From: Crossaster papposus
Lineage: Eukaryota > Echinodermata > Asteroidea > Velatida > Solasteridae
DNA: 64,000 nt
Assembly (NCBI GenBank): GCA_037893245.1
Contig: JBAIAA010000454.1
Location: 294,059 to 358,058 of the forward strand
Reading direction: 5' to 3'
Positions 12,901 through 63,099 of this stretch are shown here, piece by piece. Made by a program: the position numbers and the translations under genes. The notes under the pieces were generated by a model, which was given only the letters and a program-made list of their open reading frames with translations, searched no databases and was not told the origin of the DNA. The number at the start of each line of letters is the position of its first letter. The first letter of the stretch is position 1.

Positions 12901-15900
12901 TGCGTTGCCCGCAGGGTGTGCCACATACTGCAAGGGCATCGTACGGGCACCACAGGGCCGCCTTAAGCCTGCCCTAGGGCGCTGGTGGATTCCTGCGGCC
13001 GCCGCAATTTTGTTGTGGTCCGCAAAAGTCAATTGTATTTACGAGGCAAACGCAAGGCCACTGCACGCCCGACGCATGGTCGCCGTGGAACCGCTCTACG
13101 GCATGGCTACGGTGTGACTAATTGCTACGGCGAACCTAGAAATGCAAACAGCTATAACTCCGCGCTATAATCCCACGGCGACCTATACGGCCTGTAAAAT
13201 ATAACGATACGCCCTAGGCCACCGCAGATCCTCTGCGGCCGCCGCAGGTATCTCTCGATTTCGGGGGGCTTTGCGGCCGCCGTATCCTAGCCGTAGAGCA
13301 AATGTGACTGAGGTAAGTCATTGTATTTATTTCGAGCTAAAGCTAAATGGTGAATCTCCCCATATCATGAACTGTGAGCCAAAAGTCATGCTTGTATCAT
13401 CAAAGGCACAATTTACCATACTATTTTCCCTTTCTGCTCCACTATTTCATTATTTTGTTGTTGTAAATTCACCTTGGGTAGAAACACAACTAGAATCGCC
13501 AGCGAGGTACAGAAGATGGAGATGGCGGAATTGAAGATGTAGAGTGTCTGCGTGTCTCGGCCCAGGACTAGGTTGATAGCTAGAGCCACGATGCATAGTA
13601 TGACGACGTTATATACGCTTATACCGATCAGTTTGCTGTCATTCAGGGCTGGGATGTTCACCTGTAAAATCAACATTAAATCAAGCTGTTGCCAGTTTGG
13701 AAAGAGGGTACAGGTTTGAACGGTTCGAGTTTAAAACATTATTCCCCTTTCTTCCAGATCTTTTAAAAGTGTAACAAGTTAAAATGTGCCTGTTATGGCT
13801 CGGTCACACATAAGCGATGCACAGCCCTGGCATTAAAAATTAATACAAAAATGTAAAATAAGACCAGTGCGTCGTTGTGCGCCCAACTTTTATCAGAATC
13901 TGGGAGAAGCTAGCGAGTTGACAAGGAAAACACAGCGTGTTGCTAGCGCGCTGCGCGTAAACAGGGCGCATACGGAGCGTATACCGAGCGTGTACAGAGC
14001 GCACATGTTAAAAATCAAACGAATGCACAGTGTGTTGCTAGCGCCAGTTCCGAACAGTTAAAGCGCCAGTAATGGCCCTGTCACACCAGGACGTTTTAGG
14101 CCAACGCGTGAGTAACGTGTTGTAATTTTTGCAACACGCTGGCAAACGCTGACCAACGCTAGGCCAGCGTTAGCAACACGCTGAACGCGTTACTCACACG
14201 CTGGGACACGCTGTCACATGCTGAGGAAAACATATTTTGTTCAACATACCTACAGCTTCCAGCGTTTGCCAGCGTGTGACTGCACACGCTGGCGGCGCGT
14301 TGGAGGTTCGTTTTTCACGCGTCGAACACGCTAGACGATCGTTATCAACCCGCTACTTACACGCTGGCGTACGCTGACGTACCCTGGCGACACGCTGGTT
14401 ATGGCCCTGTCACACCAGAAAGTTTTAGGCCAATGCATGAGTAGCGCGCTAAAAATTGTTGATACGCTGGCAATCGCTGAACTTTCACAGAAAAAGTCAA
14501 GTGGAGCCGTGATTTCAGCATGTCCATACAGGTTGATAACAGGTTCATAGCGTATGCCAGCGCGTGAGTAGCGTGTGAGGAACGCGCTCAGCGTGGGAGG
14601 AACGCATCACTAATTTATAGTAAAAATAACACAGCGGGTCGCCAGCGTGTGAGTAGTGGGTTAGTAACGATCGTTTAGCGCGTTCGACGCGTGAGTAACG
14701 ATTTGCCTGCGCGCCGCCAGCGTATGCAGTCACACGCTGGCAAACGCTGAAAAGTTTAGGTATGTTGAAAAATGTATTTGTGACAGCGTGTCCCAGCGTG
14801 TGGGTAACGCGCTCAGCGTGTTGCGAACGCTGGCCTAGCGTTGGTCAACGTTTACCCGCGTGTTGCCGAAATTCCAACACGTTACTTACGCGTTGGCCTA
14901 AAACGTTCTGGTGTGACAGGGCAACACTGCAATTGTGGCCAGTGCGTTGTCGTTTGCTGGGTGTGCGTCAGCATTCGTTGTCATTCGCTTTGTGCGTCGG
15001 GATTTATGTGCATGCACGCATGGATGTACACGCCAGAAGGACGCCAGACACGCGCAGAGCGCGCTGGATCAACGCCAGAAACTCGCGAAGCCTAGCGTGC
15101 TTATAACGCATGTCCAGCTAACATGCAGAGCGCACATGTTAAACAATCAAAATAAAAAGGTGTTCGCTAGACCACAGCCGACAAACATACAACGAATATC
15201 CAGCGTGTGCTTCTCGCGCTCTGCGCGTATCTAGCGTCATTCTGGCGTGCACATTCATGCGTCCAGCTCCGTGCACATGTTTGTGAATCCCAACGCACAC
15301 AACATCCCGACGCACACAGCGATTGACAACTAATGCATAGCGTTGGTCCGGCGCGCTTGACGAACGAGTAACGAATGCTGAAAGCACACAGCGACGACAA
15401 CTCACTGGCCAAAATTGCTAATTGCTCAGTGCGCGGACCTTGTGTCATGTATGTGTGACTGGCGCATTATCACTTCTCCCCCGACCCTTATGGGTGAAGA
15501 CAGAGGTTGTGCGTTGAGCGCGCGGTGCATGCGCGTGCCATTCGTTCCGCGCGCACATGCATGTTGCTTTTTTACCTGGCCTCCAGTAGACCCCGAAATG
15601 TGGCGGTTATAGCGCAGTGACCATGTGCAACACTGCTTGATGGCGGTCTACCGCCACGTTTGCGGTTTGGGCCTCTGGTATTGCTGCCTTTTTGCACTTT
15701 ATTTTCGTACCGGTCATCCAAACAACTTCACACTTGACACTGTACATTCTTAAAGGTAGGATACACCATTTGCAGATATCGACAATATTCACTACCGAAT
15801 TATCAGGAAATATCTTACTCATTTGAAAGTAAATAATGATTCTAGGCATCCAGCAAAATAGATTGCGCTGTAATTATTCCAAAAAAAAATTTTTGTTGAA

Positions 15901-18900
15901 GACAAATTCGCGATCGCTTGACGGCGATCCCTTAAAAAACCAAAAATAACATAAGAATAACTGCTCGACGCCGGTTGGAAACAAACGCTGTTTTTCGTGC
16001 TTTTCTCGGCATCCATGATTGTAAAACTTCGGACAGGTCAGTTAAACTTTATTTACTATAAAATACAACCCCCAAATCTACACATTCATAATAATTCACG
16101 CAATTACCAATGGTGTATCCTACCTTTAAGTCTTGAGCAATACACATTCATACCTTCATCTTTATTTCCTGAGATAATTGAAAAACAGCAGACACACAGA
16201 CTGACATATATACGATTTCTAGATTGATAGATGTACTTCGAACTTGTGGAAAATGTAGATGATTCTTAATTAAACGCGGTGAACGGAGGTACGTAATTTG
16301 TTTGGTTTATTGCCACGCCCTGATTCTGAGTGCCATTCGCAAGACGGGGAGGAAGGTTAGCCATCTTAAATACTTAAACTTTCAAAGTTATTTTAAAAGT
16401 AATGCAAAACATTTGCTTTTGCTGTAATCTGATTAATAATGAGAGGGTTTAACCAATAATAGGTTGATGTTCATATCACACCTGTAGCTATCAGTTAATT
16501 TTGAATAAATTACAGGGAAATCCGTGTAAATATATACATGACATGTTACGCCCCCATCACACCAAACTAGTTCTCACTACGTTCTTGGAAATGTTGCCAA
16601 ACGGGCTCAAACTGTGTGCGAACAGAGTGGACGTAGGGCAACTGTTTACGGTCTTGATCGTATGCAAACTTCATGGACGGGCTCAGACGGGAAGGGATGG
16701 GAAGTACTTTGAGCCTACTCAACATTTTAGGGCGGTTATCTCGTTCTGCAATTAGACGGAGTGACAACGTACTTAAAACGAGATGGACGTACTACAAACG
16801 GAATTGCCGTATTTCGATCTTGGGGACGGGGCTTCGAGATCGGCGGGTAGTAGTACTGGCTGCTTTCCCACGGCAAGTCTTCCCGATCCACTTCTCCTTG
16901 GAGGCATGATGCTCGTAAATGTCGATGTCGGAAAACTTGTCGGAAAAGTGTTGATCTGCACAGGTTGAAGCGGCAAACGCAAATGAGGACTGGCAAAAAC
17001 GCGGTAGGTATTTATAACCGTCGGGCCAGGACGCGATTGCAATACGCACTAGGGACGAGATGAGGACGTGGCGAGAACGAGGTAAACTGTCTGGGAACGA
17101 AGTGGTCGAGTTAAGAAATAATTAGAATGGGTTAGGACGTATTAGGAACGAGGTAGAACAAGTTCAGAACGGGTTTAAACTGACTACGGACGGGCTTGGA
17201 CTGCTTGGAAACGTTGTCCGCACGAGGTGAACGGGCAATTTTACCCGATCTGAACTGGATACCAACGGACTGCGGACGGGTTAAAGACGAGATGGACATA
17301 TAGAGGACTGTTTCTGAACGAAGTAGCATCGTATTTATGACATTATTATTATGCCAAAGTTACACGGTCTACCCCCAGCACAGCCCGTTTTACGATTTTG
17401 TTAGGATGGGGCAGGACGTTTTAAGAACTAGTTTGGTCTGACGGAAGCATTAGGTCTGAAGCACGCCTCCTAAATTAAAAATAGCAACGGTAATGTTTGC
17501 CCGCTATCGGCTTATTGCAAAATGGCAATAGTCGCGCCACGAAATTACAATTTTGGAGGTGATGAGATTCAAATTTTGCTGAATTTGAAAGTGTCTCAGG
17601 CAGGTATATATAAAGGGAGAAAAAATAATTATAAATATTCAAAGGGAGACATGCGTATAATTTGTGATAAGACAAGAGTGGATTATGCTGGACGATCAGT
17701 CAATCGTCCTGTGCTATTGGTCGATTATAACTGATATTTTATATTTGCCTTTAAATAATCCTTTAGAGCCGTGAAGTTGACAGAACATTTGTTCGACTGG
17801 TGGTGGCAGCACAATCGGCGCATATAAAAGATCATCGACCGACTGTGCCCAACAGTTATACAAATTACGATGAATATTATTTGATAAATCTGTCAAGTTT
17901 TAGCTCCAAATTAATGTACCACTTCCAGTTTCCAATGTTAGGTGTCATGTGCAAAGGTAGGCTCTCCGTAGCTGATGTGCTTGAGGAGAAAATTCTGATA
18001 ATTATTGATAGTTATTGATAATTATTATCATTAATTATATAAATAATTCTTCCAAATAGGCACTTTGGGAGACAAATTAGCGATAGTTTTGATTCACTTG
18101 GGAGACAGTGGCACTTAGGGAGACATTTCAGTGTCTCCCTAAGTGTCTAGCTACCCCACAAAACGATATTTGGGAGTTATTTTTGCTCGGAGAAGACAGA
18201 TTTGGGTCTAAATAGCATAAATATGAAATTTCGTGGAAAAAGCTCCAGGTAAAAACGGGTTAGGTTACAATAAAGATTGTGCACGACTCTATGGGATTGT
18301 CTCCCAAAGTGCCCATTTGGAGGTATGTTAATTATGATAGTTATCGCAAGAGGACGACGAAGAAACTGTTTGCCTGGCCAGAAGATTGTATCAAGTCGCC
18401 CCCTGGTCGCTTTGCCTCAAGATTGTCGGTATTTACCTCTCTTTTTATCACAGGAAACATTGTTCCACTTACAAACAATGCAAACTTTAAAACTCATCCA
18501 GATAGCGGATGCCTCGCGAAGCGCGGTATCTCGCTATAAGAATGGAAAGCAGAGCCTACATACCCGTCGTGTCTCCCAGGCTAGAAAGGCACCAAATATC
18601 AACAGCAGTCCCTTGAAGGAAATTAGTGCAATGCTCCAGTACAGGTAGTACTCCCCGGTACACACCGTGATGTAGGGGACACGAATCAGCGTGGCATTCT
18701 CTGCGTCTTGCTGTCAGAAAATCAAAAGGCGGTAAAAACCAACTCAGACTGAGGATTAAGAGCAAAACAAAACAAAATGGAATTTGTTAGACTCATGATG
18801 TAGGCATCAGCCTCGGTCCAAAAACTTGGGCCACCGGTATCAAAATGATCGAGATCGGAATTAACTGCCCATTCCGTTTTTGGCAAGGTATATGGTTGGG

Positions 18901-21900
18901 AAATGTGTGACAGCATTGTGGCGTAAGTGTAGGCAGCCTTTTGGTGTTTTTTTTTCTTTGATTTTGTTCTCCAAAATGGCCGCCAATGTGCGTTTTACCC
19001 ATAGAGCAGAATAATAATACAGCTCTATGGTGTTACCGGCTTAGATGTACATGTATGTGGTAACAAGCATTTTGGCTGCCATTTTAGGTTTTTCTTAACG
19101 GAGAGATAACACCCAAAATGCTGCCACTGCTGCAATGCTATCACAATCAAGCTATGGTATAGCGTCTTGATTTTTACCTTATCAGGAAGATATATTTTAT
19201 CAACGCGCCAGGGGAAGAAGAGTTGCCATGGTAATATAATGGCGACGTCAATCACAAGAAGAACAGCAACCATGAGAATGAGCTGGCTATCCTGCACCAC
19301 CTGCGAGACGCAAGTGAAACAACAGAATATCACTTGTAAAGAAAGCTATATCTAGAAGTTAAATGCCAAGCGATACATAGCGAGGAAAACCCCCCGCTCT
19401 GCCTATAGGCAACTTTAGCTTGGAAAGCTCCACACATACATGATTTTCACACGGGTGACCTAAGATAAAGTTGCCGCTCTCCAAGATGATACAAAAAGAT
19501 AAGCGAAACTGTAAGACGGTTTTAGGGGTGTTTTGGACAACTATTCGTCACGGACACCACGAACTAAAGCCCTCTGCATCACAATGTGTACCAATAAATC
19601 AAGAAATTCGACAAAAAACAAAAACATTATTGCCGAATCTAACACTTTGTGTCATGAGGTATAACATGGCGAAATGTTTTTTTCGGAAATCATCTTGAAT
19701 AATTTGCTAATTTGTACTGGCGAGTTTTGCAGAAATGAGTCCATTCTGGCGTTGATCGGTTCCCCGAAGTGACACTGCACTCAGTGTCAGTTCGTGAAAA
19801 CTAAATTGCGTGGGCGCGCTGTGAAAAAGATTTTACGAACTAGCACATTCTATACATCGTACCCAGGGCAATGTTTTACGGCTCTGGCTCTGTATACGTA
19901 TGCCATGTTTATCTTAGACTTGGTGCCAAGTCGGTAATAGCGGTCCATTCGGTATTATATTCGGTTGCCTCGTACCCAATTTGCAGAGTTCGAAGTTAAA
20001 TTAGGCACGTCACTAGTCTTAAACCAGCCGTGCAGGTGGATTTTGACTGAAATTCACGGATGAAACACTACTATCAAACGACTTGTCATCAAGTCTACGT
20101 TTATCTACAAAATGAATGAAACTCGATGTTGTCATTATTGGCGGCACCCAAGCACTGTGTGCGGGCACTCCCGGAAAAAAGCGTCAATTTTGTTTTTTAC
20201 GAACTGACACCCGTCTTAATCAATTAATTATTAATTAACAGCATATTTTCACAATATACAAATTGTGTTTCAGTAGTTAACGAATTGTTACGTTTAATGA
20301 TACCAAAACCCCTCAAGTAAACGGATTTGTTGACTGAGTAAATTCGTGTCAAACCTTTAAAAGCGTTTTTCTCCGATTTTTTGTTCTGCAACGGCGACCA
20401 CTGGGTGTCAGTTCGTGGTGTCGGTGACAATTTAGTTTGTTAGTGATTTATTTATTTACCCCAATTTTTTGGGAAGAGAAATTCGATGAAAATACTTAAG
20501 AAATATTTGACCATTCTTTTTACAAAAATTGAAAAAAATGACTTATATTAGGGAGTTTTGAGAATGCCGAGTCGGTTTATATTTTGTACAATAAAAATGA
20601 CCGCCAAATCTAAGACGACGGTCGTTTTTTCCCAAAAAAAATAGGCGTTCTTGGCTCAGTAAAATTGACCAATCTTGATGAAATGTGATCAGTTTTAGGA
20701 GTTTACTATGAAGCTGAATCGCTTTATTTTGTTTGTTGGTTGGGGTGTTTGTCACTCAGTTTCACATTTCTCGCTTTGTGCACTCATTCAGGGTGAGCCC
20801 CCTACTGGTACAGTATAGTGCTATACACAAACATCCATTCAAATTCAACGACTCACACATTTAATTTCGTCCAAGAAAAAAAAAAGTCGCACGATTTAAC
20901 CAAACCAGTAAATTAGTCTGGTGACTGAGTCAAGCACAAATCAGACTAATTTGTTTACCATAAGTTTGAAATTGATTTATATGAGACAAATTCGATCTCC
21001 TAATTCAAACAGAATTCAAACAGGGTGACAACACTTTACAACTGAATGGTAAATGACTACTTGTTTGGGAAAAACGACGAAATTAAATGTGAGAGTTGTG
21101 AGAGATTGTGATACTTTTTGTAATGAAAATAGCCGGAAAACCTATAGTTGTCCGTATAATGTACATGTATACGTTGACACAATACGGTGCTATACAGGGC
21201 CGAATGTACAATCTATTTTAAGGGGTGCTGCATACTACACGTATAGTATGTCTTCTTCTTTTTAGCAAAAGGCACAAAGAGGGCCAAATCGTGATTAAAA
21301 CATCAAAGGTCCCGCTACTGATGTGGACTTTCAGATATATCGGAGTGCGAAATGACAGAACCAGGTCACCTTTCTCTTGGGAGTTTTCCTCGCCACGACT
21401 TTGTGGACTCTCCAGGTTTTACTGAACATTGCTCCAAAAGCTAAGACAAACCCAACAGCGATAAGCCACACTCGGATCTATATAGAGAGAAGGGAAGACA
21501 TTACAACAAACGGATTGAAAATAGTCCACTTATATAACCATGGAAGAGGCACCCCCATCATTTAAAATGATTCGGGCACCCCAAGGAGAAGCTCCAGTTT
21601 CTATTACGCGTACAATTTGATGGACATAATCCGTTCTATTATGGTTTGGTTGGAAACAGCTGTTGTTTACATTCTGTCACTGGACTAGCGGTACATGTAT
21701 ATAGATTATTGATAGCTGCTATTAATCATGCAGGCTGGCTAGACCGGCGAGACGGTCAGTATACGCAAAGCACTACGGCCTGCGTCAAACGTCGTGATTC
21801 AGCCGTGTCGAATGTAATTACTTTGACAATTTCCCAGTTGGTGTGTCCATGTATTAAGGGGGTTCTACCCCCTTAATTAGGAGCGTCCCGCTCCCCGTCC

Positions 21901-24900
21901 CGCTCCTAATTCGTGTGGGACCTAGTAATTAGTAGTATGCGCATGCGCCTTTTCGACTGCATGCTCAACGCGTGTTGGCATTGATAAACAACACCACGAT
22001 TCGTTACTGCGCGGTAAAAACTTACGACAATTTCACTTTTGCAACCGCTATACGTTTTACGAGCTGAAAATGCACGCGCACCTGCATGTTAGGCACTTAC
22101 TATCAAAAACATAAAGTAACCACGGTGGCACTGGAGGGACTACGCAAATCATGAATATTGACGTCAATATTTGCGACAATTTGTTGTATGACTTGTTCCA
22201 AAGTCGTAAACATTGTCGTCAATATTGACATCAAATTTCACGACTTTCCCCAAAAGTCGTGAATATTGACGTCAATATTCTCGATTATTTTTACAACCGG
22301 TCATACTTTTTGACGCGATTTTTTGCGCGAATATAGGATCTGTGTCATTTTTTTGCATCTACAATTACCTGTTTGGTAGGAAGTACTTACATTACAAGGC
22401 TGTCTGTGAATTTTTATTAGCACAGGACCTGACATTTCTAACAAGATATACATCGCGAAAGTCTCCGGTAAACAATTTCCTTTTTCCCCGGCAGCTCTGA
22501 TTGATACGAGAAACTACGCCATTTGACAATTAAGTACGAAAGTGTTGATGTCACAGTATTAAATTCGAAGTTTGATGCAGGTGTAGAGTTTGGCGCGCTT
22601 TTGTTGCACCGAAATGAATTGAATTCGACACGGCCGACAGAAGCACGACGTTTGACGCAAAATAAAGGTGTTTACACAAAATAAATTGGGCTTGGCTAGA
22701 GGCGCAGATTTTTCACGGTCGGCTTGCATGACTGGTGAGTGAACTCCTCATCAAAGTTGACTATGGAAAATCAAACTGGGAGGTTCGATTGAGGATTACA
22801 TTGAGTTGGAGAGGAATTGGCCTAAATGTGTTTAAGTAATTAAAAACATAATTAATGTGCCTTCCGGAAGCTCTTCTTGGCTGCACGGATGGTTAATTAT
22901 TATCGCCTACATAATAAACGAACGAACAGTGCTGAACAACGAAACATAATGATGCTCAGTTTGTAAGCATGTTTAAAACTAGAAGGTAAACATTTAATTC
23001 TTAAAAAAAACAGTGTCCAAAATGTTGATGCTGTCAATTGTAAGTAAATTATAAATACCACGTAAATCTCCAAGACTCGAGACAATAAATGTAACTAAAA
23101 ATAAGCAATCTCAGTGAAAACATTTCTCTTTTTAACATTTATTTTCGACCAAAAACAGGAGGATTAAAATTAATTTCACAACAATGAGTAAACTCAAAGA
23201 TCCTGATAATTTCGGGGTTTCCCTTGAACAAAAACACCATGATTCAAATGCTGAAACAAACTTTGGGTCTAACACAGGCAATTGTGGATTCCAGTCGTTT
23301 ATAAAAAGCAAGTTAATTCGCAGGGGTAAGCGCAGAACACGAATTATTAGTTGAGTAGGAAGGTGAGGTTACCATGCACCGGTTGGAAGAGTTTCCCTAT
23401 TATATAGGATGTTTCATTACCCAAGTAACACTGCAAAATAAGTAATGCCCATTGATCTCTATTGACCTTTATCTATAATTTGTAATGTTCTGAAATGACG
23501 ATAATTTTGGAACCATTTTTAACAAAATCGCAACTGTTTACATGTTGACCCCTACGGGATCCAAATGTTGACCTTTGACCTTTTAAATAATAACTCCATA
23601 TATAACGGTAAATCCTATAGGGCCAACTATAAATTTTCTGAACCCTTGTGACAAGACAAATGCATTGGTGTGTTTTAAACACAATTTGAGTTAATGTAGA
23701 ATTGTGAAACCTGTACAACCATAATGGCCGTTAAATGACCCATTGGGACAATATTTCGGGATGGGAACATTATTGTTTTTTCTGCTGTGATGTGGACCAT
23801 GGTGTTTTGTACACCCGAGGGGGGAAATGGCATTTGCCCCCGAGGGTGTACAAAACCCATGGACCACGTCACAGCGTTATTGTTTTGCTATACCATGGTA
23901 TTTATTGCAATTAAGAGGTACAAGACAAATTATTTTAGAATACTGTTTGTTACAGTATTAACGTTAACGTACGTACTCCCGAAGTCGAAGCATTCAAACA
24001 TTGGTCGGTATTTTGTTTTCGTTTTCACGCTGTCTCGCTCAAAATTCAGATCTTTTCATTGGATCCACAAAGAAACCTCTTTTTGGAGGCGACTTGTCAA
24101 TTGACATAATTAACTAACGGTGTTGGAACGTATAAAACATTGAAGGGCAGACGAAACAACTAGTAAACAGGTAATGGGGGTATCGTACGGCCTTTCAAAC
24201 TTGTATGCTGTAACTGTTCCCTATGATACGTGCATATTTTGGTTCACGTAGTACCAGTGAAAATGAAACCTCCTTCCCCTGATCTGCTTATATTGAATTT
24301 GATTTGACTTGGTTTATTTATTCAGGTTAACTCAAAAGCAATATGAAAGATAACAAATACATAAAACAAAACAACCCATTTGATCTAACCTGGGATAGCC
24401 CCAAACGCCAATTTTAAAGGCTTATTTCCATTGGGGTCCCAAACAATTTTCGTTTCAGTTGAGAAGGCCAAACGCTGAGAACGATCAAGGTAATGTATTC
24501 CACGGGGTACATCACTTTTTCGGAGTGATGCACCCCAGGTACATCACTTTTGAAGTAACACATGAACATTTGTAATACACCATGTGACCAGTTATCGACC
24601 AATCGGATCTCACAATTGAATGCATGGTATAACAAGATAAGTTGTTTACCCCACTATAAAGCTTTCCCATTATAAACTATATTACCAAAACGTAATTTTG
24701 TACATACATGACAGAACGTCACCAGGTGTTTCTCGTCCACCAAGTTCTTATCAATCCCATACATGACCACGGATGCATAAACAATGACGGTGCCGATCAG
24801 TATAATGTTGTTGAGATTAGGGCTGGACATTCGTACAATCCTGGGGAGAAAAAAACACAACTAAAACGATCACATTCCTCTGAAAATACAATTCACATAA

Positions 24901-27900
24901 ATGCGTTTCCTCATTTAAAAAGTCTGAAATAGAGTTCGAGTATCTGACTCATCAGATAAACAAGTTCATTTCTGTTCTTACTTAAGAAAATTTATGAAAA
25001 CTCGAAGCATAAACGCGTTTACGTTACTAAATTTACTGACGTTAGTCCAACTTCAGTGCACCATTTCAAGCTTCAATAAACTATCGTCTTTTTCATCCCA
25101 CAACAGACTGCCAGTGAAATTTATTATTTATGCCCCTTTGTCTTCGTCAAGATCATTATAGCAATTTTAAAAGCGATGTATTTTGTATAACCAAATCTGG
25201 AACCTCACGCAACTTGTGCATTTTACTCCTGTCAACTGCCATGTGCAAACTCTAGTTTCACGTGTCACATGACATGATTAGACTTATTTCAAGCCGCCAA
25301 CTACTTCAATCATGGCCTACTTATGTGCATCAAATTTGTTGAGATTTATTTCTAAAATCGGATTTTTCGGGAACAATATTGTTGGAAAAGATCGGAAAAA
25401 GTCGGATTACCGAGTAAAATTTGAAAGTTTTCACCAAGAGTTTACCATAGTTACATTAACTCTGATCGAAAGCACGAAGGGACTCGTCTAGTCGATTATA
25501 TCCGCGACAAACCTATACCGCGGTTGGTCGCGCTGGTTATCGATAGCAAGAATTTCATTGCAAAGTGCACCGGAGACCAACTATAAAAAAGGCAGACAAC
25601 GAAACTTCGCCGTTCAAAATGCATATTTTCTTTTACGTTAGACATTTCTGTCACCATTGTATAATAAAACGGCGGTAAGATATTCTAAACTACGCAATCA
25701 CTATTATGGTGTAAATTAACCACCAGTCAACCATTGGTCCTTGATCGAACTTTCCCTAAACTATATTTAACAAAAAAGTCATCCAGCCAGTTAATCAACC
25801 AGAAACATATAGGAAAATCAAACAGTCAATAACGAATCAGCTTAATTAACCAGTTACTTTCCATTGAACTATAGTCAGTTTACAACCAGTTAACGAGCCA
25901 GATCCGATTAACGGTTTAACCCATCGTTCAACTATGTCGTCAATCAGCTCATCAACAGGTTATTCAACCAGATACTTAATCAACCACTGAACAACTGCCA
26001 ATCAACAGCCAGACAATTTTGTGTTAGGGAGACGGGGTGGGGGGGGGGGGGGGGGGGTCTCAAACTTGAAAACAAAATTGCTTCGTCAACTTACCTCAGG
26101 GCACGGTAGCGAACATTGAAAGCAAGAAAAAATAGCGAGAGAAGAATTCCAATGCCAGCCAAAGATGCGAGACATACAAACACAACGAAATCGATCCCGA
26201 CATATTCCTCAACTCTGTGGATCGGAATAACCGGCGTTCTGTCTAGTGGAACTCCTCCACCTGTTGATGAAGGAAAGAACTTTGACAAAAGTGACGGGAA
26301 AAGACAAATAATTAGGCCTACGGTCCCATCCTGACCCATAATAATAAAACAAAACCTGACGTCACAAATTCGCGTTTGCGTTCGCTTTCGCGCCGAGTAA
26401 GAACCGATGGACTGAACACGAGACGAATGTCGTCTGCTTCAGCAGATTTTTTAATGATTATGCTCTTCTATAACTTTCAGAAAAAGTATATCAATCTAAC
26501 TATTATTGTTATTATGAAAATACATTGTAAAGGAATTAGGAAGAAATATTGTCACAAAGGCTCATTTTATGTTTTTCTTATACTCACAGCACTATCGATT
26601 GTCTCTATAGCCACAAATTTCTCAGGATATTTTATATTATTGTCGATTGATGGTGTACAGTCCGCCACTTTCACCTAATTTCCACATAATATGCCTGATT
26701 TTAACGTGAAAACTACATTTTTTTATATTAGGGAGTGTGAAACCCTATGGAAACAAACATGTTTGTTGGGGTTCTTTTCGGAACGAATAGATCCGTCAGT
26801 GGGCTTGGTTCCAAATCTCTACATTGTACGTGCTGAATTATTGTCGGACCCTAAAGGTATAGTATACACCATTTTCAAACATACAAAAACACCTATTATT
26901 ATATAATACTTTACTTGACTTTAAGCGAATAACGGTCTCAAGCATCCTGTGACATCACTTCCTTCTGATGTGCTGTGGTTTTCAAGAAAAGTGTGAATTT
27001 GTGTCGATTTCCAACGATTGCCGGCTAGCAATCGTTAGGAATACCTGACGTTTTTCCAAACACTGCCCATAATTTATTAAATTTAGTTTATAGTCCACAT
27101 TTTATTTGCAATACTGTTACACATCCATGAATGGGTGCAAGCCAACTAGTCTGGTTTCCTATTAATCTGACGTCTGTAAATTGTTCCGTTTCGTCTGAAG
27201 GAAGTCAACGAACCAGACTACAAAAACAGTACTAATGTTCTTGGTTTTTCTAGCATCAATGAACAAAAAACTTCAAAAACAGGTCACCGTCACAATATTT
27301 ACTATTATTATGATCCCCTAACCCATCCATTTATATCAGCAAAAGAAAATGGTGTATACTACCTTTAGGCTTAATTAAAATGTACAAAATCTCTACCGGC
27401 GCTGCATAACCAAATTTGAGCAGATTTATTGTCTTTCAACGTCTCGTTCAAAAGTATTGCTCTAAAATAGCAAATAAAACAAATCGAGGTACAACACAAA
27501 AAGCACTAACACCTAATTTCAAATAAATTGAATACAATTGTATACCTGGCCATATCATTTCCGAAGTCATCTTCAGCACATCATTTGCCGTATCGTAAGT
27601 CCCCACAAGCACCTCCATAAATTCTGTTTAATACAAAGGCAGAAGAATGTTGCGCAATTACATAGAGTTCATGGGTCTGCTGGGTGCTACTTAATACAGG
27701 AGAGTGTTAATGTTCATAGAACACAAAGTCAAGTGTTTCCTTTCGCCATAACCTGCTCCGTACAGTAAGCAATTTCAGACTCTAAAAACTGTGTTTAGCG
27801 AGTAAACACATTTCTTGCTATCAGTTTGTAAACATGTTTATAGAAGCTAAAGGCACGCCCAATTCCAAAACGTCAATGTTTAATGGCTAAACAGTATCAG

Positions 27901-30900
27901 TCCTTAATTATTGTGCTTAACTTATTTAGCGTGTAAACATGTTTAGCATACTGATAGCAAGAAAGTGTTTGGAAAAGTGTTTACTGGCTAAACAAAGTTT
28001 TTGCAGAGTTCCCGCTAGAAGCCCCGCAATATGTGCACTGACAAGTTAACCAATTGGTCTTTATATGCTTAAAAAGTATGAAATTGAAATTATCATTCAA
28101 CAACATAGAAACAAAATCGATTTGTGTTTTCCTTGGCAACTTGAATGTTAGTTTGTTCCTAAGAAAGCCAATCCGAGGAGTCTGGTATTTTTCAAGCGTG
28201 CCGTCCAATGTCCGAGTGGAAATATTCCAGATGACGACAGAACCGTCCAAAATAAAGACATACACGTCGGCATTCTTCAATGTACCATGAAACAAAGCTA
28301 CCGAGGGCTTTATTCACGAGTCGGCAATATTGAAATAAAAGTGGGGTAAAATCTGTATTTTGGGAACATGCGGATAGAAATTACCTAAAGTTGAATTAAT
28401 TAATACCGGTCTTCTCTGATGAATAATTTAAATGTGTGAATAAACATAGCTTAATGTATTAAGCCACATTAAAAACAATTGAAAGTGAGATTCTTATGCA
28501 AAAAAGGTCTGGCACCATCCCGTTCAACAGCTCATAATTTATAAAATACATTCAGGGAACACGACCAAAATGGCTTCCTCTTTTGCACAACTCAAAAGCA
28601 TTTAAAGGGCACCACTAATGGAAAGGTAGGAGGTTACATTTGCAGTATTTGACATTCATTTCCAAGACAAATTAAAATATAAAATAACACCTTTCAAATG
28701 CACGTGTATACCAGCATTCAGGTACACAACTCAATTGCAAAATCATTGAAAAGGTTGTTCGACACATTTTCCTATTATGCATGAACATGTTATAATTGTT
28801 CGACTCTAAATGAGGTTTGCCAAAACCAGCATGAAAAAAATAATATTATTATGCATAGCATGCTTTATTCCAAGGTTGGAAGGAAGAACACCGACGAATT
28901 GTAACCGTTTTCACGAAGAGAGAAAGGTTTGTCCGCGGAGTCAAAAACATAATTCGAGAAAATCGCTTTTATTAGTGGTCTCTCTTTGCATAATTTATTT
29001 CACTGTAATTTGGCGCTATGTTGGCCTAACTAGTGTAACTACACGAAATAACACAACTTAAAAACCCTAAATACTCACAAAATAACAGTCACAGGAATTA
29101 TCACTCTCTTTATTGATAATGCCAGAGATACTTTCAAATTCAGCAAAAATCGAAGGTCAATCATTACCACCAAACTCGTAGCCAGGCCAATTGTAATTTT
29201 TACAGCTGTGATTTTGAATTCACGAGGCGGGATTCAGACCTGTACACGTCATATAATTTGCATACATCAGAACGCACAATACACTGCTAGTTACCGGACC
29301 CCATTTTGAAAAACAATGGGATCCGGGAAACCAGACTATACTCACCAGCTTGATCCTGGCATACGAAGGCAAGCGGCATGCTGCAGCTGACCCGGACAAT
29401 GAGGGCAGCATCACCTGAGATATCCAACGCTGAACAAGTTGCATTAGTGGAGTTGTAATCCGTGTCGCCTATCGTGTCGAATAGCCTACCATAAGATACA
29501 TGTACAGCAAGGTATGAATGCTCTATGGCACTTTTGACAAAACTCGGTGACACATCAAGAACCACACAGGCTATAAGAATTATGTATATATCCCATGGAA
29601 CATGCGTTTGAATGACGTTTTGAAAAGAAACATTCTTAAAAATCCAGTTTTAAAATACAACACTCTGAAAATACAACTCGACATGAAATAACTGTTGCCC
29701 TCCGCAGCAGTATGTAACCTTTAATATCACACCACATGGAGTTTTCATATTGCCTGTATGGCGCAAGTTTGCTTGCAACTGAACTTAAAATTTTACAATT
29801 GCAGGTCTTTTACAACTCAACCACAATGACTTTCGACCTAATTACTTGACTTTTGACCCGACCATCTTATACAATTTTACAATATAACATGTATGACCCA
29901 AGTTTGATTAGAATTGGACTTCAAGTTTTCGAAAGAGAAGTTTTACAATTCAAACCTCATTAAAACTTGACCTTAAATAACTTTTGAGCTCAGTACCTGA
30001 TCTTTGACATGACCATCATGAAGGTTACAATATTGTATGCATGCCCCATGTTTGATTGCAATTGGTCTTCAAGTTTTTGCGTATAAGACTATAATTTACA
30101 AAACTTTAACCAAAATAACACATACATAATACGGACGTATAATACGAACGGTTACATACAGCTTCGTTCAGTCGAGACAAAAGAAAAACGGTACGTTTAA
30201 TACAATTACCACCATTGATATCCCGCCCAAAAAAGTCTTGGAAAATGCACCCCCCCCCCCCCCCCCCCCGTTCCTTGGGGTCGCCGCACGTGACAACTCT
30301 AGGCCTATAAAGTTATAATAACTAAATGTATAGCTTTAACATACCATTTTTTATTTTCAGCCCTATTGTTGACCTCTGATTCCTTCAGTGTTCGAAACAA
30401 CCAGTCGACTTCGGTGCCGTTGTTGACATCCACCGATGCCAGCCGGCTGTTGTCGTTAGTACGACAATACGACACGGCGTCTTCGAGGCCAAGTGGACGA
30501 TCGACAAGCATGTAGCAGCTTCTGTGGTGCTTAATCCAAGTCGGCCAGCAGCCGACTGACGGTGGAGGAATGTAATGCAAACAAACAAACATTAAAGGTA
30601 AAACAAAACAAAGACGATGTGATATGAACATCAGGCTCCTGTGAAAATCTGACTCATTTTTCTCAAGTATCTCACGTGACCTGTCACCCTCCTCGTTATC
30701 ACGATCACCAGTGAGTCTGAAATTCATGCTACAACGGACGGCATTGTTTCTATATACGGCATTTGGGGAAAATAATAACTAGTGAATCGAAGTGAGTTTA
30801 CGCCAGTTTACTACACATTCTCAGAGCTGGTATTGTTGGTACGCAGAAAATGGCGTCATGACACTGAGCGCCCGTCACAGGAACTTGACCAATTACAATT

Positions 30901-33900
30901 ATGTGTTTGAGAAACCAATTGCAAAGAAAATGTGAACTAACTATAATTGAGTAAATTGCCAACCATCGTTGGAAATTTATGCCAACAATTCCAAAATTCT
31001 TGACATCAAACAATTTTACTACCGAATTATTATAAAATATCTGTCTTATTTTAAAGTAAATAATGATTCTTCAGGCACCGGCAAAACGATTACGCTAGAT
31101 ATCCTGCTATTGTTTCGAAAATTTGAATTTTATTAAAAAAGTTTCACGATTGCACGACGGCAATCGTGAAAAATTACATAAATATAAAAAGAACAACTGC
31201 ACGACGGTTGAAAACGAACGTTGTTTTTCTTGTTTTTCCCTCAAGATCCATGATTGTAAAACTTCGAAGAGGTCAGTTAAACGATATTTACTATAAATAC
31301 ACTTAAATCCACCCATTCCTGATAATTCAAACACTTACCAATGGTGTATACGAACTTTAACATGACGCTTAAGACTGATATTCAATAATTACAGTAAAGT
31401 AAATATTGTATTTGTTTCCACAATAATTGGGTTGTTTACTTTTTTGATAGTTGCAAATGATGTATACAAATCCTTGGTCACGTTATGTTGCCATAGATAT
31501 CTCTCACCGTGCAAGATATATTTTACTATGACATATTTTGTTTCCATAAAAAACGATACAACAAAAATAAAGCAGTCCCCACCTCTTAGTTGCTCTATCT
31601 GTGTGAATGAGATTCGGTCGGCGCCTAGAAAGCTGACGGGACCCTGTCACGAGAAGAACATTTGGGTAGATATGAGAAACAACGTTGGGTAGATATGAGA
31701 AACAACGTGAGGTAGATATGGGAAACAACGTGAGGTAGATATGAATAATTACGTGAGGTAGATATGGGAAACAACGTGAGGTAGATTTTGAAAAAAAGGC
31801 GGTGGATACATAAGAGAAACAACGCAGGTTAGTATAGGAAACAACGTGGGGTAGATATGGAAAACAAAGTGAGGTAGATATGAACAACTATGTGAGGTAC
31901 ATATAGGAAACAACATGAAGTAGATATGGAAAAGAGCGGTGGGTAGATATGAGAAAAACAACGTGTGGTAGATATGAGAAACAACGTGTGGTAGTATGGG
32001 AAACAAAGTGGGGTAGATATGAGAAACAACGTTGGGTATAATGAGAAACAGCGTGAGGTAGATATGAGAAACAACGTGTGGTATAGTATGGGAACAACGT
32101 GGGGTATAGATATGAGAAACAACGCTGGGTAGATATGAGAAACAACATGGGGTAGATATGAGAAACAGCGTGAGGTAGATATGGGAAACAACGTGAGGTA
32201 GATATGGGAAACAACGTAAGGTAGACATGAACAACAGCGGTGGGTAGATATGAAAAACAACGTGGGGTAGTATGGGAAACAACGTGGGGTAGATATGAGA
32301 AACAACGTGGGGTAGATATGAGAAACAACGTTGGGTAGATATGAGAAACAACGTAAGGTACATGTAGATATTAGAAACAACGTGGGGTAGTATGGGAAAC
32401 AACGTGGGGTAGATATGAGAAACAACATAGGGTAGATATGAAAACAACGTGGGTAGATATGAGAAACAACGTGAGGTAGATATGGGAAACAACGTCCGAG
32501 GTAGATATGGGAAACAACGTGAGGTAGATATGAACAACAGCGGTGGGTAGATATGAGAAACAACGTGGGGTAGTATGGGAAACAACGTGGGGTAGATATG
32601 AGAAATAACGTGGGGTAGATATGAAAACAACGTGAGGTAGATATGGGAAACAACATGAGGTAGATATGGGAAACAACGTGAGGTAGATATGAACAACAGC
32701 GGTGAGTAGATATGAAAAACAACGTGGGGTAGTATGGGAAATAACGTGGGGTAGATATGAAAACAACGTAGGTAATTATGAGAAACTACGTGGGGTAGAT
32801 ATGAAAAACAACGTGGGGTATAAGGTAAACAACGTAGGGCTAGGGTAAATGTGCGTTTGTTTAGCCTTTCAAACACTATGGTCCAATAAATGAATGACGT
32901 GATGCCAACAAGGACGGATCCGCCACAGCAAATTCGTCTTTGCAGTTCTTTCCTTAGTACAATAATTTCATAGAGCTTCTTATTAAGCACAACAATTTGC
33001 TTATAAGCAGACAATTATTTGCTTTAGTAAATTAGGTTAAAACACAACATTCCATGTGATTGTTATGCTAACCTACAGGAGCCAAATACCGATCACAGAT
33101 AATACACATCACATGGAGTTGTGGCTGTAAGCAGCTGAATGACATTGGCGCCAACTAATGCGTTGATTTTTGTCATCACCTTAGGCTGATATATTATGCA
33201 CCAATGTGAGGTCACTCGCCATTAAAACTGCCCGCACATTTCATCAAGAAAAAAAGCAATTATCAGACTTCATAACAACGGACCATCCAATCATCTATGC
33301 AATTCAAGAGACTTTATTCACCAGTTTGCCATGTTAAATTGGAAGCGAGGTCAACTCTTTATTTTTGGAACTTTGTAATGTGTGCAATTAGATATAAGTT
33401 CCTTACAAATTAACACCAGTCTTTTCTGGTATTTTTTTAAACGTAGCAAACGCAAGGCTTGGACTGCAAAATAGTCTGGCACTATCGTATTCAACAATTT
33501 TCAATACAAAAAAGCATTCAGGGAACACCATCGGAAATGGCGTCCTCGTGTATGTCTACAGAGACTGCAGGAATGCCAAATGTACCCCCCCCCCCCCCCC
33601 CCCCCCTCCCCCCTTTCCCTCCCTCCACCTCCCCCAACTGCAATTGTGGTTAACCCACTGTACAAATAAATCCGTGCGTAAATATGACGTCTGGAAAATG
33701 CCAGTAAAAGATTATACCGATGTGCCGTAGAAATTGGTTCTGTCAAGCGACTCGAAGAAGACCTGACTCATCTCCTTGTCATCATAGGTGAAGTCCTCCA
33801 AACGACGGATGCTACCGTCTTTAAACGCCTTCGTCTTCAGAATCTACGGGGACAAAAATCGCAGTCTTAGAGTTTGTGTCTACTCGATGTAGCCTAACTT

Positions 33901-36900
33901 GGGTATTGATTTTCGATTTCAGCTCGACTGGCTATCTTCCAGTTTTAAACAGTTATGGTATTCAATAAGTGGCAGTAGAATTCCCCCCTAAATTCCGGAG
34001 GCTATTAGTAAATACAAAATGTTGTAGGCGCGTTTTAAACAAACATGTGTACAACCGGCTCATGGGATTGGACGCGTTAATACCCGAGCCAAAACACTCT
34101 CATTCAAGTGTACAACCAAGTCAAAACAAGTTAAAAATTACAATTTTCCAACAATTTTTTTTGGACAAATAATTATGTCTGAGGAACACCCTTCCAGCTA
34201 TTGTAATAGTAGGCCTACGTGCCTCACGAACGTGCCCTTGCAATTATTAAACTGACGCGCGCGTTCCCCCTGCTGCTCGGTATGGCATGATGTTTGTTAC
34301 ATAGCCCATTATCACTATTGAGGATTCAACCAATGAAAAGGCTATGTACTAGACTTCATAGGAGTCCAAAATTAATGCGACACCCAAAAAACATTTAAAA
34401 CTGGCTGGGCCATGTTTATCGACCGTTTAAACATATACACTTGTCGAGCCCTCGACCATTAGGAATAGCTAAACTGTCTCAGGTATTTATGAATATAATA
34501 TAGACAAATACAAGATACGTTAGACTTAAACCTGTTCTGTTTTAAACTAAAGTGCATATTTGTCAGTAAACAAAATGTTGGATAATTAACTCCAAACCAT
34601 CATTTGTCTGTGATCATTTTAAAAGAACATTTCCAAAAGCAACCAGCAACAAAATACAGTGTTGTGTATGTCAGAATTTAGAAACACTTAAGTTGTTAAC
34701 AGCGTTTTACATAACAAATTACAACATAATGATATTCATTAGTCAGTACGTTGTGTACTACCTACGTCTGTTTTATGCTGGTATCAACAACGATTCTTCA
34801 ACTCACAGTTACACTTCAATGGAGTAAGTAAATGGTGAATAGGGACCATTACATTTTGATAGGCGTGAGGGGTACTTATGCGGCTCGAAAATGTCGCATA
34901 TTAAATTACCATTTGGCGTTGTTATTTTATCCGGTACACTATCGGCAATTTCCATCTCATATCAAATTGTTGCAATGTATACTGTAAAACTGATGAAATT
35001 ATCACACTAAATGGCGATTTAATAGGCGACTTTTCCCAAGCCGCATACGTATCCCGTATGCGTATCAAATCCAATGATCCCTATCAGGAAGTTATATCCG
35101 AATTCTTGTGTTACTTCATTGTAAGACCACATAACGCTCTAACATCATTCAGGCCACCCTAATTCACACTGAAAAAGAGCATTATGCGATTTTGCATTCA
35201 AAGCGGATATGGTCCTTAGCAGGATGTGATTTTAACACCAGATTGCCAAAATCACATCCGAATGCTCTAAATTCACACCCTTAGTCCAAATTCACATCCT
35301 GGGTTAGGTGGATGTTAATCCAGTGGATGTGTACTTGAACCTTAACGACTTTACCCATGGTAATGTTATTTTCCACCCGTACAGCGAACCCCCTCTTCCC
35401 ACCAAAATAATTTAAACAAAACACAGCAAAAGCACTAAAAAATCAAACTACGAATCTTAACAAAAATATACAAGCAGTGTTTAGTGACCGTATTGCGAAT
35501 GAAAAACGACAAACTGTACCATCTAAACTGTTTTTAATTGGTTGAAATAAAGGTTAGAATCAGCTACTTGGGTCGTGCGAATAAAATTAGCACTTGCTTT
35601 TACTATCAATCTTCAAGCATTTACTAACATCTGTATGATTACAAACAAAGCAATGGTTATACTAAAATATTAGCATTTGCTCCATTTGGTATGAATACAA
35701 AAGGAGTAAATGCTTCACATTTGCAGTATTTACTCGTCGGTTTTTCAAGGTTGGGTCGGGGCTACCTTGAAAAAAGAGAAGCAAATACTAGTATGTAAAA
35801 TAAGTGCTTTTATATGTGTTTTGGCAGGGAAAGGTATGAACATGGAAGAGAGAGCATCTAGAATAAAACATATAAGCAGTTGATTAGGGAAAGAAATGAA
35901 ACGTAGATGGCCGAACATTTCTTGCAACATTATGGGGATGGAAAGAGGCTGCATGACTGCGAAACAGCAACTTAAGGTGCCAATTTTATTCGAATACCCC
36001 TGTAGCTTACAGGTTGTACGTACGTACAAAACAGACTATAATTGTTGTTAAACCCTCAATTGGCTGTGCAATTAACTGCAAGTTACACTGCACTATGAAC
36101 ATCTGACAAAAGAAAAACTGTGCACTAACAATAACAATTTATTGTTAAGTTGGCACTAAGTCAATAGTTAATTGTTTACAGTGTAACAAGCATTTTATTA
36201 CCTTTTCAGCTCGCAAACAGTAAAACTTAATTGTATTCAGACGAATTGAAGCATTTGCTTTTCCTTTATAATGCTTTTACTCTAAAGAAAATGCTTTTTA
36301 CTTGTTTTTTTGTATATTTTATAGCATTTGCTAGTTTTTATTCATATGGTACCTTGTAAGAAATATAAAAGCAAAGGGGGAAGGTTGGGTGTTAATGGGC
36401 ATTTGCCAACAACTCACCTCGGCCGATTCATTTAGAGCTAGTGCGATAGCCCATGCCGCATCGTAGCCGTAGGTGGAGATGCTGTTGTAGGTGTACGCGC
36501 TATTTTTCGGCAAGGCCATTCTCCTACGTAGCTCGAGGTCGAATTCGAGCGGCGTCTGATGAATAAAATAATACAGGGAAGTAGCTATAGTGGACCTTAC
36601 TAGGATTGAATTAGTAGGGGAACCGTCCGGTCCAAACTGTAAGTGCCTTATAATTTGAAAGTGGAAAATAGTGTAAACTTACTTTCAACGATGTTAGCCT
36701 CTGGCTATAGGTTGTGCTTTAAAAACAAATTACAGGTAACGTCATACATTGCTATATAGCGCCCTCTAGCAGCAGGTTAAAAATGTGTTAAATTGAACAA
36801 TATGTTGATGTGTGTGGCGAAGTTGGCTCAAATCAATTCATAATTGATGTATATAATCAGCTTCATGCTAAGAACAAGTTGAGGGAAGAAAACAAATTGA

Positions 36901-39900
36901 TGACGTCACCAGACCGGTGATATATTTTGAAAGTTGAAAATTATGTTAACTTACTTTCAACGAAGATAGTCACTGGTTAAGTGTACTTTACAAAAAGTTC
37001 CAAAACGTCATAACATGTTATAGCGCCCTCTAGCGGCAGGTTTAAAATGTTTAAAATGAATAATCAGTTAATTCGTTTGGCAAAGTTCGCTAAAATCCCA
37101 ATTCAATTGATGCATATATTCAGCTGCATAATACAAACAAAATGAGTGGAAGAAATACTGATGACGTCACTAGTCCGGAAGTCACAATAAAAGACTGACA
37201 ATTAAACCTTAAAAGATTGCTGAGAAATCAACTGCGAGAGATATAATCCAGATTTGTGCTTCAAAAAGTAAAATTAAGACAGCTCTCGGGCTGTCAGTCT
37301 CGACGTCAGTCTCTGGCTAGGAGTTTCTTAACAACATATATACCGGTGACGTAATACAAAGTTAGAGCGCCCTCTAGCGGCCGGTGTATAAATATCCAAT
37401 ATTAATAATCAGTTGACGCGTGTGCTGTTTTGTTTTACCTTCCTTTTTCCATAAAAAAACTTATTCAATATGGGTGGCTTGGGTGGCTTGTGTGTAAAGC
37501 GCTCGCCTCTCACCAATGTGGCCCGGGTTCAATTCCCGGCCGGACCATATGTGAGTTGAGTTGTGCGTTGGTTCTCTCCTGTGCCACGAGGATTTTTCTC
37601 CGGGTCTTCCGGTTTTCCTCCATCTGGAAAAATCAAACACTTTCGATCTCAGGCTGTGCTCCGTAGTCATATATGAGTCGATGTGGCCGGCTGCCCTAGG
37701 CGCCTTTACGTGCCAGCGACTCGACCACGTTGTAGCCGCGTCCTTCGCAATTAAGCACACCAGTTGCGAGTAAGGATGATTAGCCTCCCCAATTATTATT
37801 ATTATTATTATTATGGGGCGTGCCACATCAAGTACCAAAAAATGGTTTTGCTTGAGTTTTCAATAACAATAACAGAATATATGTATAATATAATAGCAAA
37901 ATGTACGGTTGAAGCAATAAGAACGAAATTATTCTTACTATTCCAGCCACAGTCATGGCATTGTGGTCACCAAACACGGTGCTCTCTGTACTGATGTAAT
38001 AGGAGCCCTCTACCGCCCTCTTGTACTCGGCAGTGGTGCACTTTATAACGGTAGGGTCGTCTAGCTCCCACCAACTGTAGCTAAACCAGCCGAGATGAAA
38101 CCAAACATAGCCAGGGCCTATCATGCCCTGACGACCGGCCTGTGGTTGCAACGAAGCAAAAATATAATGGGCACTAGTGTTAAATGCTCATATGTTCAGT
38201 CTCCAGAGAAAAACGATAGCCAACATGCCATGTTTCATTTTCTGTTCAACATTTGTTTGGTGAGTTGACTGAAGACTTTTGGGCGAAATTCTCAACCCAA
38301 GAAACACCACCCTTAAAACCAATAAAGTTTCGCAAACTGGAAAAATTGCCATTTTAAAGAGATCCTTCCACAACATGGCTAAATTGCGCCATTTTTGGAC
38401 CCAATTGAATTCAAAATGCTCAGAATTGGAAGCCCAAAGTCTGGGCCAAAAGTGCAGTGCGATATGTCTTCAATTACCCAATTCCAGGGCTCTTAGATCT
38501 CTCTAATATACATAATCTTCATTCATGAGCTCGGCGGACGGATTTTTGACCTATTTACTTGGTCGGTACCCTAGAGTCCGCGAAAAGGAATAGGACAAAC
38601 AATTACCACTGGCGGTGGAGCCGGGGGAGGGGCAGGGATCCGCCCATCCTTCTATTTGTTTTACTTGGGAAAATGCCCCCCCCCCCCCCCCCCCACACAC
38701 ACACTCTTGGCAGGTCCCATATTGCACTCTGAGCCGTATATCAATAACTAGTGCAGTGCCCGTTTAAAATGTGCCTATTTTGAACGGAAAAATTCGGCAG
38801 ACCCGCACACGTGGCGGTATGACTATATTTGTGGCGGTTCATACCACCATCACGTTTGCGAGTCTAGACCTCCAGTTTGTTTTTGCAGCTTTTTTGAGAA
38901 CCGCTTATCCACTAAAATCGCTAATCATAATTGTAACACTGTAACATTCTTTGGTCCTAAGCAAGCCGGCCGATTTTCAACTTCATACAGTGCCCAGTTC
39001 TAATCGAAATACGGACAGCCCGACAGCCCGACAGCCCGACAGCTCGCACGACGTACAGACAGACATACAGCGTATAGTATACCTACCTCGCACATTACGC
39101 GTCGTGCCTTACTCTCGTACGCGTTGACTATAATAATGCGAGCATCTAGCGCCTGTTTGGAGAAAGGAATCCAATAACAATAACGTATGTGACACGAGGT
39201 TATTCTTTGCAGACCAAGACATTATATAAACAAAATATGCACTGCAGAAAGGCAAGATACATAGGTTAATACACTCTAAAAACTGCTGAATCTGAACCTA
39301 TATTTAACTCCTATCCATTTTATGGTTAAAAAATGTTTGGTAATTGGATCCCACTCTTTGTTTCAATCCTATACAGGGGCGGATCCAGGAATTTCGGTTA
39401 GAGGGGGCGCCAACAATTGTCAACATAATATATTGGGAGAAGATATGGGAGCGCAGGAGGCGCGAAGCCCCAACACCGAGATCTTCTCAATCTTCTCGAG
39501 ATTTTTTTAGGGGGGGCGCGCGCCGGGTGCGCCCCCCCCCCCCCCCCCCTGGATCCGCGCATGCTATAGGTCTATAGTTATAGATATATACCATAAAACT
39601 AACCTGTAACAATTTCATTTCAAAAGGTGTTACCGATTTTGATATATTGCCGAAAATCTGGAGCGGTTATGTCCACGCAGGAAGAATAATCTGCAGTAAC
39701 GCTTCTCAGATTCAAATTGTTTTGGATACAAAGTGATATCTTTTTCTATAACCGTAGTACTTCGAAGTGAAAGGTTTCTAAAAATACATTATGCTATCCA
39801 AAGCTGCTGTACTTCTTTTTAAGTTTGTATTGCCATTAATTTTTGGAGTAATTACCAAACGTATACGATCCCTTTAAACAAAATGAAACTTTCCCGAGTC

Positions 39901-62669: not shown

Positions 62670-63099
62670 CTGGTTCCCAGACCGGCGTCACACTATAACA
62701 ACATACAATAGAAAGATTTGAACTATTTTATTAGTGGGCTTAGAGTTGAAGTGACAATGGCTTTAGTTTATCAGATGTTGTTACCGACACCACGAACTAA
62801 CACTTAGGTTTCTAAATTGACACATTGACACTATGCGGTTTTACTTCGTAAATACCGTCCAGTGAACAATTTCGGTTTCACGAAATGCCATTTATTTTTG
62901 TTATCGAACGATGGGCTCACCAATAGAGCCGTTACATAAGATTTTTGTTAAGCCTGAACGCTCTTAGTTTATAAAAACGGACATTGCATTTGAACGCCTT
63001 TCTTCTCGGTCTGAGCGTTCGAACTTCGCTTGTCATAAGATTCTTACGACTTGCTGATGCACACGTTTATAATAAGTTTTTGGCCGATACTTTCTATTT

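Follow-up and report, generated by a model that had tools for sequence, protein, structure and literature searches.

Few G-protein-coupled receptors (GPCRs) with a C-type-lectin-like domain (CTLD) are on record. A report on placozoan adhesion/secretin GPCRs, in its passages on these receptors, names them and one Branchiostoma adhesion GPCR as the only CTLD-bearing GPCRs described to its authors' knowledge (PMC6321704). Here we consider a predicted GABA-B-like (gamma-aminobutyric acid type B) receptor gene of the sea star Crossaster papposus, in which two CTLD exons lie in an intron between exons for the last strands of the Venus flytrap. The window, i.e. the whole stretch of DNA analysed, forms the final 64 kb of contig C454; the assembly (G000) totals 1.02 Gb, and the search for further copies of the cassette covered this one genome. 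Like the window gene, the placozoan and Branchiostoma receptors have a CTLD on the extracellular side of a GPCR; unlike it, they belong to the adhesion/secretin family, and their CTLDs, as those passages describe them, form or join the extracellular region with no insertion into a flytrap (PMC6321704). Venus kinase receptors and Hydra Sweet Tooth resemble the window gene in that a flytrap or CTLDs are coupled to another signalling output; their output is a tyrosine kinase and neither, in the relevant part of that account, joins a CTLD with a flytrap (PMC2680970). Among the papers listed in our literature search, none was seen to describe a class C GPCR that carries a CTLD; animal sequence databases and subscription papers lay outside this search, and an unremarked annotation may exist elsewhere.

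The GABA-B receptor chains GB1 and GB2 share the flytrap and the seven-transmembrane (7TM) part with the window gene, but none of the GB chains aligned has anything inserted at the last hairpin of the flytrap. The initial annotation of the window had asserted that vertebrate GABA-B receptors lack such a domain there, and we found no counterpart at that point in these chains. The sushi domains of vertebrate GB1a are N-terminal, outside the flytrap. The four exons that define the insertion site are given below in the order of transcription; C567c, C567a, C567b and C43 denote further copies of the cassette in the same genome.

31583..31643, minus strand: flytrap exon preceding the cassette (GPVSFLGADRISFTQIEQLR), phase 1 donor, aligned to GB1 and GB2
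30345..30555, minus strand: CTLD exon 1 (VGCWPTW..SCY..SYC..LASV..KK), phase 1 in and phase 2 out, with counterparts in C567c, C567a, C567b and C43
29346..29530, minus strand: CTLD exon 2 (AIEHSYLAV..NATCSAL..VSCSMPLAFVCQDQA), phase 2 in and phase 1 out, acceptor less certain
27546..27623, minus strand: flytrap exon following the cassette (EFMEVLVGTYDTANDVLKMTSEMIWP), aligned to GB1 and GB2

CTLD exon 1 is bordered by the acceptor ccaccgtcag/TC and the donor AAAATG/gtatgt, and exon 2 by the acceptor gtcaaaag/TG and the donor AAGCTG/gtgagt (the slash marks the junction). Both outer borders of the cassette are in phase 1 and the internal junction is in phase 2; the host intron, between the flytrap exons 31583-31643 and 27546-27623, is likewise in phase 1, and exon 2 runs in frame into the exon at 27623. 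The two minus-strand lectin-like exons of the initial annotation thus stand at their positions, with GT-AG borders and CTLD profile scores, and its phase-1 outer borders and in-frame junction agree with our reading of the splice sites. It had placed the module between the flytrap and the first transmembrane segment (TM1), and this we have to correct. With the cassette included the protein reads ..TQIEQLR-[CTLD]-EFMEVLVGTYD..; with the cassette skipped it reads TQIEQLREFMEVLVGTYD, which is gap-free against GB1 (4mqe_A, IEQLQGGSYKKIGYYD) and against GB2. Since the flanking exons code for the last flytrap strands and their direct join leaves no gap against GB1 4mqe_A, the CTLD, if spliced in, would occupy the last hairpin of the flytrap, so that the module would interrupt the flytrap itself. 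By analogy with mGluR1 we take this hairpin to belong, probably, to the membrane-proximal lobe LB2.

Our preferred reading, to which we assign a probability of roughly 0.74, is that exon shuffling brought a two-exon CTLD module into a phase-1 intron of a gene ancestral to a small group of GABA-B-like receptors, that the module has been retained there, and that, if spliced in, it is shown from the turn of the last flytrap hairpin. The evidence concerns the nature of the module, its recurrence in related genes, the relatives without it and the constraint on its sequence.

Judged by profile scores, the window exons are CTLD-like beyond chance. A profile built from five CTLDs of this genome gave their translation 25.5 bits, and one built from the paralogue cassettes gave it 23.0 bits; the best of 2,000 residue shuffles reached 8.3 and 7.8 bits, respectively. 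When the joined window exons were compared with PDB by phmmer, CTLDs were matched with a best E-value of 0.0012. A four-row cassette profile matched solved CTLDs (PLA2 receptor, E = 2.9e-15; LY75, 7.9e-15; MRC1, 4.1e-14) and, at 97% probability and E = 1.2e-10, the profile of the five same-genome CTLDs. Six cysteine columns are invariant in all four aligned cassette sequences and follow the long-form CTLD pattern. Among the paralogues, C43 scored 24.1 bits with Pfam Lectin_C, above the cut-off of 22.6 bits; C567b (19.4) and C567a (15.0) fell below it. NCBIfam gave no match for the window or the C43 domain.

A middle CTLD exon with the WIGL..W region was not recognised when intron frames were compared among the copies; in that comparison exon 2 was the sole strong match, among the matches listed, between the introns of C43 and those of C567a and C567b, and the C43 domain matches agglucetin end to end without a middle exon. 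The PLA2 receptor, LY75, the mannose receptor and snaclecs share with the cassette the long-form cysteine pattern and the profile matches; they are different proteins, and the receptor cassette shows, by eye, no calcium/sugar motif. C-type lectins that bind sugar in a calcium-dependent way have EPN or QPD plus WND motifs, and these were not seen by eye in any of the four cassette sequences. The glycan-binding surface put forward in the initial annotation is therefore unsupported, and ‘lectin-like’ is the apt label. Elsewhere in the genome, dense clusters of CTLD exons were noticed on contigs C133, C930, C849, C119 and C779, and at least 150 of 1,206 first-look CTLD candidates are above the family cut-off (150 of the 150 scored).

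The two CTLD exons are found in the same intron, order and strand in all five copies (window, C567c, C567a, C567b and C43), with identical 1-2-1 phases, the phase of the internal CTLD intron included, and GT-AG borders throughout. Sizes of the flytrap, CTLD 1, CTLD 2 and flytrap exons are 61/211/185/78 nt in the window and C567c and 61/202/179/78 nt in C567a, C567b and C43, i.e. the differences are at most 9 nt. Across a 22-kb stretch in which the cassette lies, C567c has 99.6% identity to the window; most of the remaining alignment is at 85–95% and its last 2.7 kb at 99.1%, a pattern as expected for an allele mosaic; C567c may thus be allele-like. Within window positions 13470-38143 the identity to C567c falls from 99.6% to ∼90–95% near 25958, as if two haplotypes had been joined in assembly. 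C567a, C567b and C43 are ∼56% identical to the window over 352–353 compared residues, and C567a differs from C567b by 1.1–12.7% substitutions (<8% in 18 of 21 aligned stretches). As the C567a/C567b and window/C567c pairs may be allelic, we count at least three distinct carrier genes; the recurrence of the cassette exons at one position in no fewer than three related genes makes them look like a genuine part of these receptors.

When the domains of the window, C43 and C567a served as queries, the only strong hits were the five copies, the next best having E-values of 0.025, 0.019 and 0.93, with the introns of the GABA-B clusters (C798, C722, C1024 and others) not read. This search has limited sensitivity: neither the window cassette nor that of C567c was among the hits of the C43 and C567a queries. 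More carrier genes may exist, since these queries missed the diverged window cassette.

The copies also bear on the possibility that the exons belong to an independent gene for a secreted lectin nested within the intron. Lectin genes are numerous in this genome, the exon 1 frame of the window stays open upstream through a signal-peptide-like stretch that contains a Met, and its exon 2 frame continues ∼20 codons beyond the donor to a stop. In C43, by contrast, the flytrap exon lies 134 nt upstream of CTLD exon 1 and a single base separates the latter from a preceding stop codon, which leaves no room for a separate start. Nor was a signal-like start seen by eye in C567a and C567b, and the outer borders of the cassette match the phase of the receptor intron in all five copies. 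We regard a nested gene as very improbable and reject it.

Since both outer borders are in phase 1, skipping of the cassette keeps the frame in all five copies. This makes it possible that inclusion is regulated: real CTLD exons would be spliced in at some stages or in some tissues, each gene giving a plain and a CTLD-bearing form of the receptor. That the skipped protein is gap-free against GB1 across the junction also speaks for such use; the symmetric phase, on the other hand, is equally expected from shuffling alone. Regulated inclusion is compatible with the insertion history that we prefer and differs from it in the use of the exons; we consider it a serious possibility at a little under even odds.

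The site of the cassette was read in three more distant paralogues. By eye, C700 and C499 carry a CTLD-free phase-1 intron (149 and 132 nt, respectively) in the corresponding position, while C518 has no intron at the site and reads straight through. In an unrooted tree of eight sequences, carriers were separated from non-carriers with 100% ultrafast bootstrap. Two marks of a shuffled module were thus observed, symmetric 1-1 borders in five of five copies and relatives that possess the intron but lack the module. A single insertion of a 1-1 module into a pre-existing intron would be the simplest history.

Between C43 and C567a the CTLD has a nonsynonymous rate (dN) of 0.43 and a synonymous rate (dS) of 2.0, with dN/dS of 0.215; comparisons of dN/dS that involve the window gene are saturated. 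We placed the 159 differences observed between C43 and C567a at random in 20,000 trials: the frame stayed open in 1.24% of the trials and stayed open with all six cysteines in 0.005%, and at most 54 of 127 residues remained identical, as compared with 61 observed. As the trials rarely keep the frame and the cysteines and never reach 61 identities, neutral drift would explain the conservation of the C43 and C567a CTLDs poorly.

As a second alternative, a module formerly in use might now be skipped and in decay, if only in the window gene. The window copy is the most diverged among the rows, its Pfam score is below the cut-off and its exon 2 acceptor changes a conserved Trp codon to Cys. Against decay, both window frames are open, the six cysteines and the GT-AG borders are retained, and the CTLD score given above is far from that of the best shuffle. 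We find a relic unlikely, though less so than a nested gene.

Several observations weigh against the insertion and retention of the module as we read them. Exon use was read from genomic sequence alone and in one genome. Of 10 window inputs tested with Pfam, two raw open reading frames among them, two had a Lectin_C row and both were sub-threshold: the exact model scored 16.2 bits and a variant whose junction codon reads Trp scored 18.3 bits. The acceptor of exon 2 is the least certain border in the window, and the one chosen gives a Cys junction codon where the paralogues have Trp. The window domain is just 26% identical to that of C567a. The two flanking flytrap exons are more constrained than the CTLD (dN/dS of 0.141 versus 0.215, C43 against C567a), and between C567a and C567b the CTLD is weakly constrained, with dN/dS of 0.41. 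Finally, C567a/C567b and window/C567c may be allele pairs, which leaves three independent genes.

Nonsynonymous and synonymous changes between C567a and C567b number 15 and 11 in the CTLD. Eight other matched segments have 3 and 7 such changes, and the pair of flanking flytrap exons has 0 and 3. Pooled counts for the CTLD and the other segments gave a Fisher p of 0.051. Positive selection on the CTLD was considered; we do not claim it, given this p value, the divergence of the surrounding intron (also ∼7%) and the possibility that the two copies are tandem-placed haplotypes.

Parts of the receptor gene were recognised on the minus strand from 62.7 kb down to 13.5 kb of the window. The flytrap (342 residues of joined pieces) has its best match in GB1 (9jqx_A, 176 bits; 4mqe_A, 174 bits; E ∼1e-50), and the 7TM part (a joined 379-residue exon model) in GB2 (275 bits, E = 6e-81); by these matches the window gene is, at the level of sequence, a GABA-B-like class C GPCR. 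No exon for the extreme N-terminus was recognised by eye within the last 1.3 kb of the window. The other recognised parts are as follows.

62556..62696, minus strand: flytrap match, the most N-terminal part found (CDAGLGTRLFFEQ..ACSTTAQ..NLIT)
53396..53536, minus strand: flytrap match (NRVVFPYFYRTYMPDSML..)
47847..47951, minus strand: flytrap match (AINDLINLMKAENITLISSESFEEDPTNQVANLKV)
39084..39155, minus strand: flytrap match (QALDARIIIVNAYESKARRVMCEV)
37933..38142, minus strand: flytrap match (QAGRQGMIGPGYVWFHLGWFSYSWW..)
36415..36558, minus strand: flytrap match (..NSAYTYNSISTYGYDAAWAIALALNESAEV), extent of the match, exon borders inexact
33718..33843, minus strand: flytrap exon (ILKTKAFKDGSIRRLEDFTYDD..FYGTS)
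26094..26261, minus strand: TM1 exon
24705..24842, minus strand: TM2 exon
21367..21477, minus strand: TM3 exon
19178..19300, minus strand: TM4 exon
18561..18713, minus strand: TM5 exon
13470..13661, minus strand: TM6-7 exon

A minisatellite at 31662-32820 (50 copies of ∼23-bp units, 77% matches) lies in the intron directly preceding the flytrap exon 31583-31643. One 2-kb step of the window, 60001-62000, has strong strand asymmetry (GC skew 0.41, AT skew 0.38). Further clusters of GABA-B-like 7TM and flytrap exons were seen on contigs C798, C722, C1024, C638 and C621, which suggests a large lineage expansion of the family.

We also looked at the ligand site. Residue numbers of the GABA contacts of GB1 were taken from PMC12499500. 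Read by eye at the presumed places of these contacts in the chain, the window gene appears to keep one Ser, a Tyr and a Trp, while His appears replaced by Tyr and Glu by Ser; one further contact Ser was read outside the GB1 alignment, and the first Trp falls in an exon that was not found. Because two GB1 contacts appear replaced, the window receptor may be insensitive to GABA and may act as an orphan receptor or a partner subunit.

Apart from the receptor genes, the 16.3-kb contig C1841 carries a cox1 that is stop-free under code 9 (AAA Asn, ATA Ile, AGA Ser) and reads as expected of an echinoderm, which the animal very probably is on this evidence. Stop-free COX1 genes are also found outside this mitochondrial contig, within long open frames, at G000:C8:5208663-5210009 and C8:2872001-2873343; contig C8 may be bacterial.

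How might the module work? In the mechanism that we propose, the two-exon module shuffled into the phase-1 intron of an ancestral GABA-B-like receptor gene would, when spliced in, be displayed at the turn of the last Venus flytrap beta-hairpin, between ..TQIEQL(Q/R) and (E/D)... The mRNAs would include the CTLD, perhaps as a skippable in-frame cassette, and the domain would fold as a disulphide-bonded CTLD, offering a protein-binding face beside a moving lobe and binding a protein partner or a cell-surface ligand. Engagement of the partner could favour or hinder the approach of the lobes and so bias the movement of the lobe that carries the domain (probably LB2) and the output of the 7TM part. 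In the Drosophila receptor, activation is reported to go along with a rearrangement of LB2 and with the C-termini of the flytraps coming closer together (PMC12499500). A GABA-B-type receptor of a small echinoderm gene family could then be a sensor of contact or recognition, in which the movement of the lobe is biased directly by a protein or cell-surface ligand bound to the CTLD, and in-frame skipping could switch the sensor off; this proposal is tentative, with the odds leaning against it.

Class C GPCRs are mostly viewed as small-molecule flytraps, and a conserved CTLD within the flytrap would be a natural case of domain-in-domain insertion. If this is true, the CTLD would give the receptor, next to the lobe that moves during GABA-B activation, a second input of protein size. 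The case bears on how class C receptors acquire new ligands, and it may provide several genes for the study of regulated in-frame inclusion of an extracellular module.
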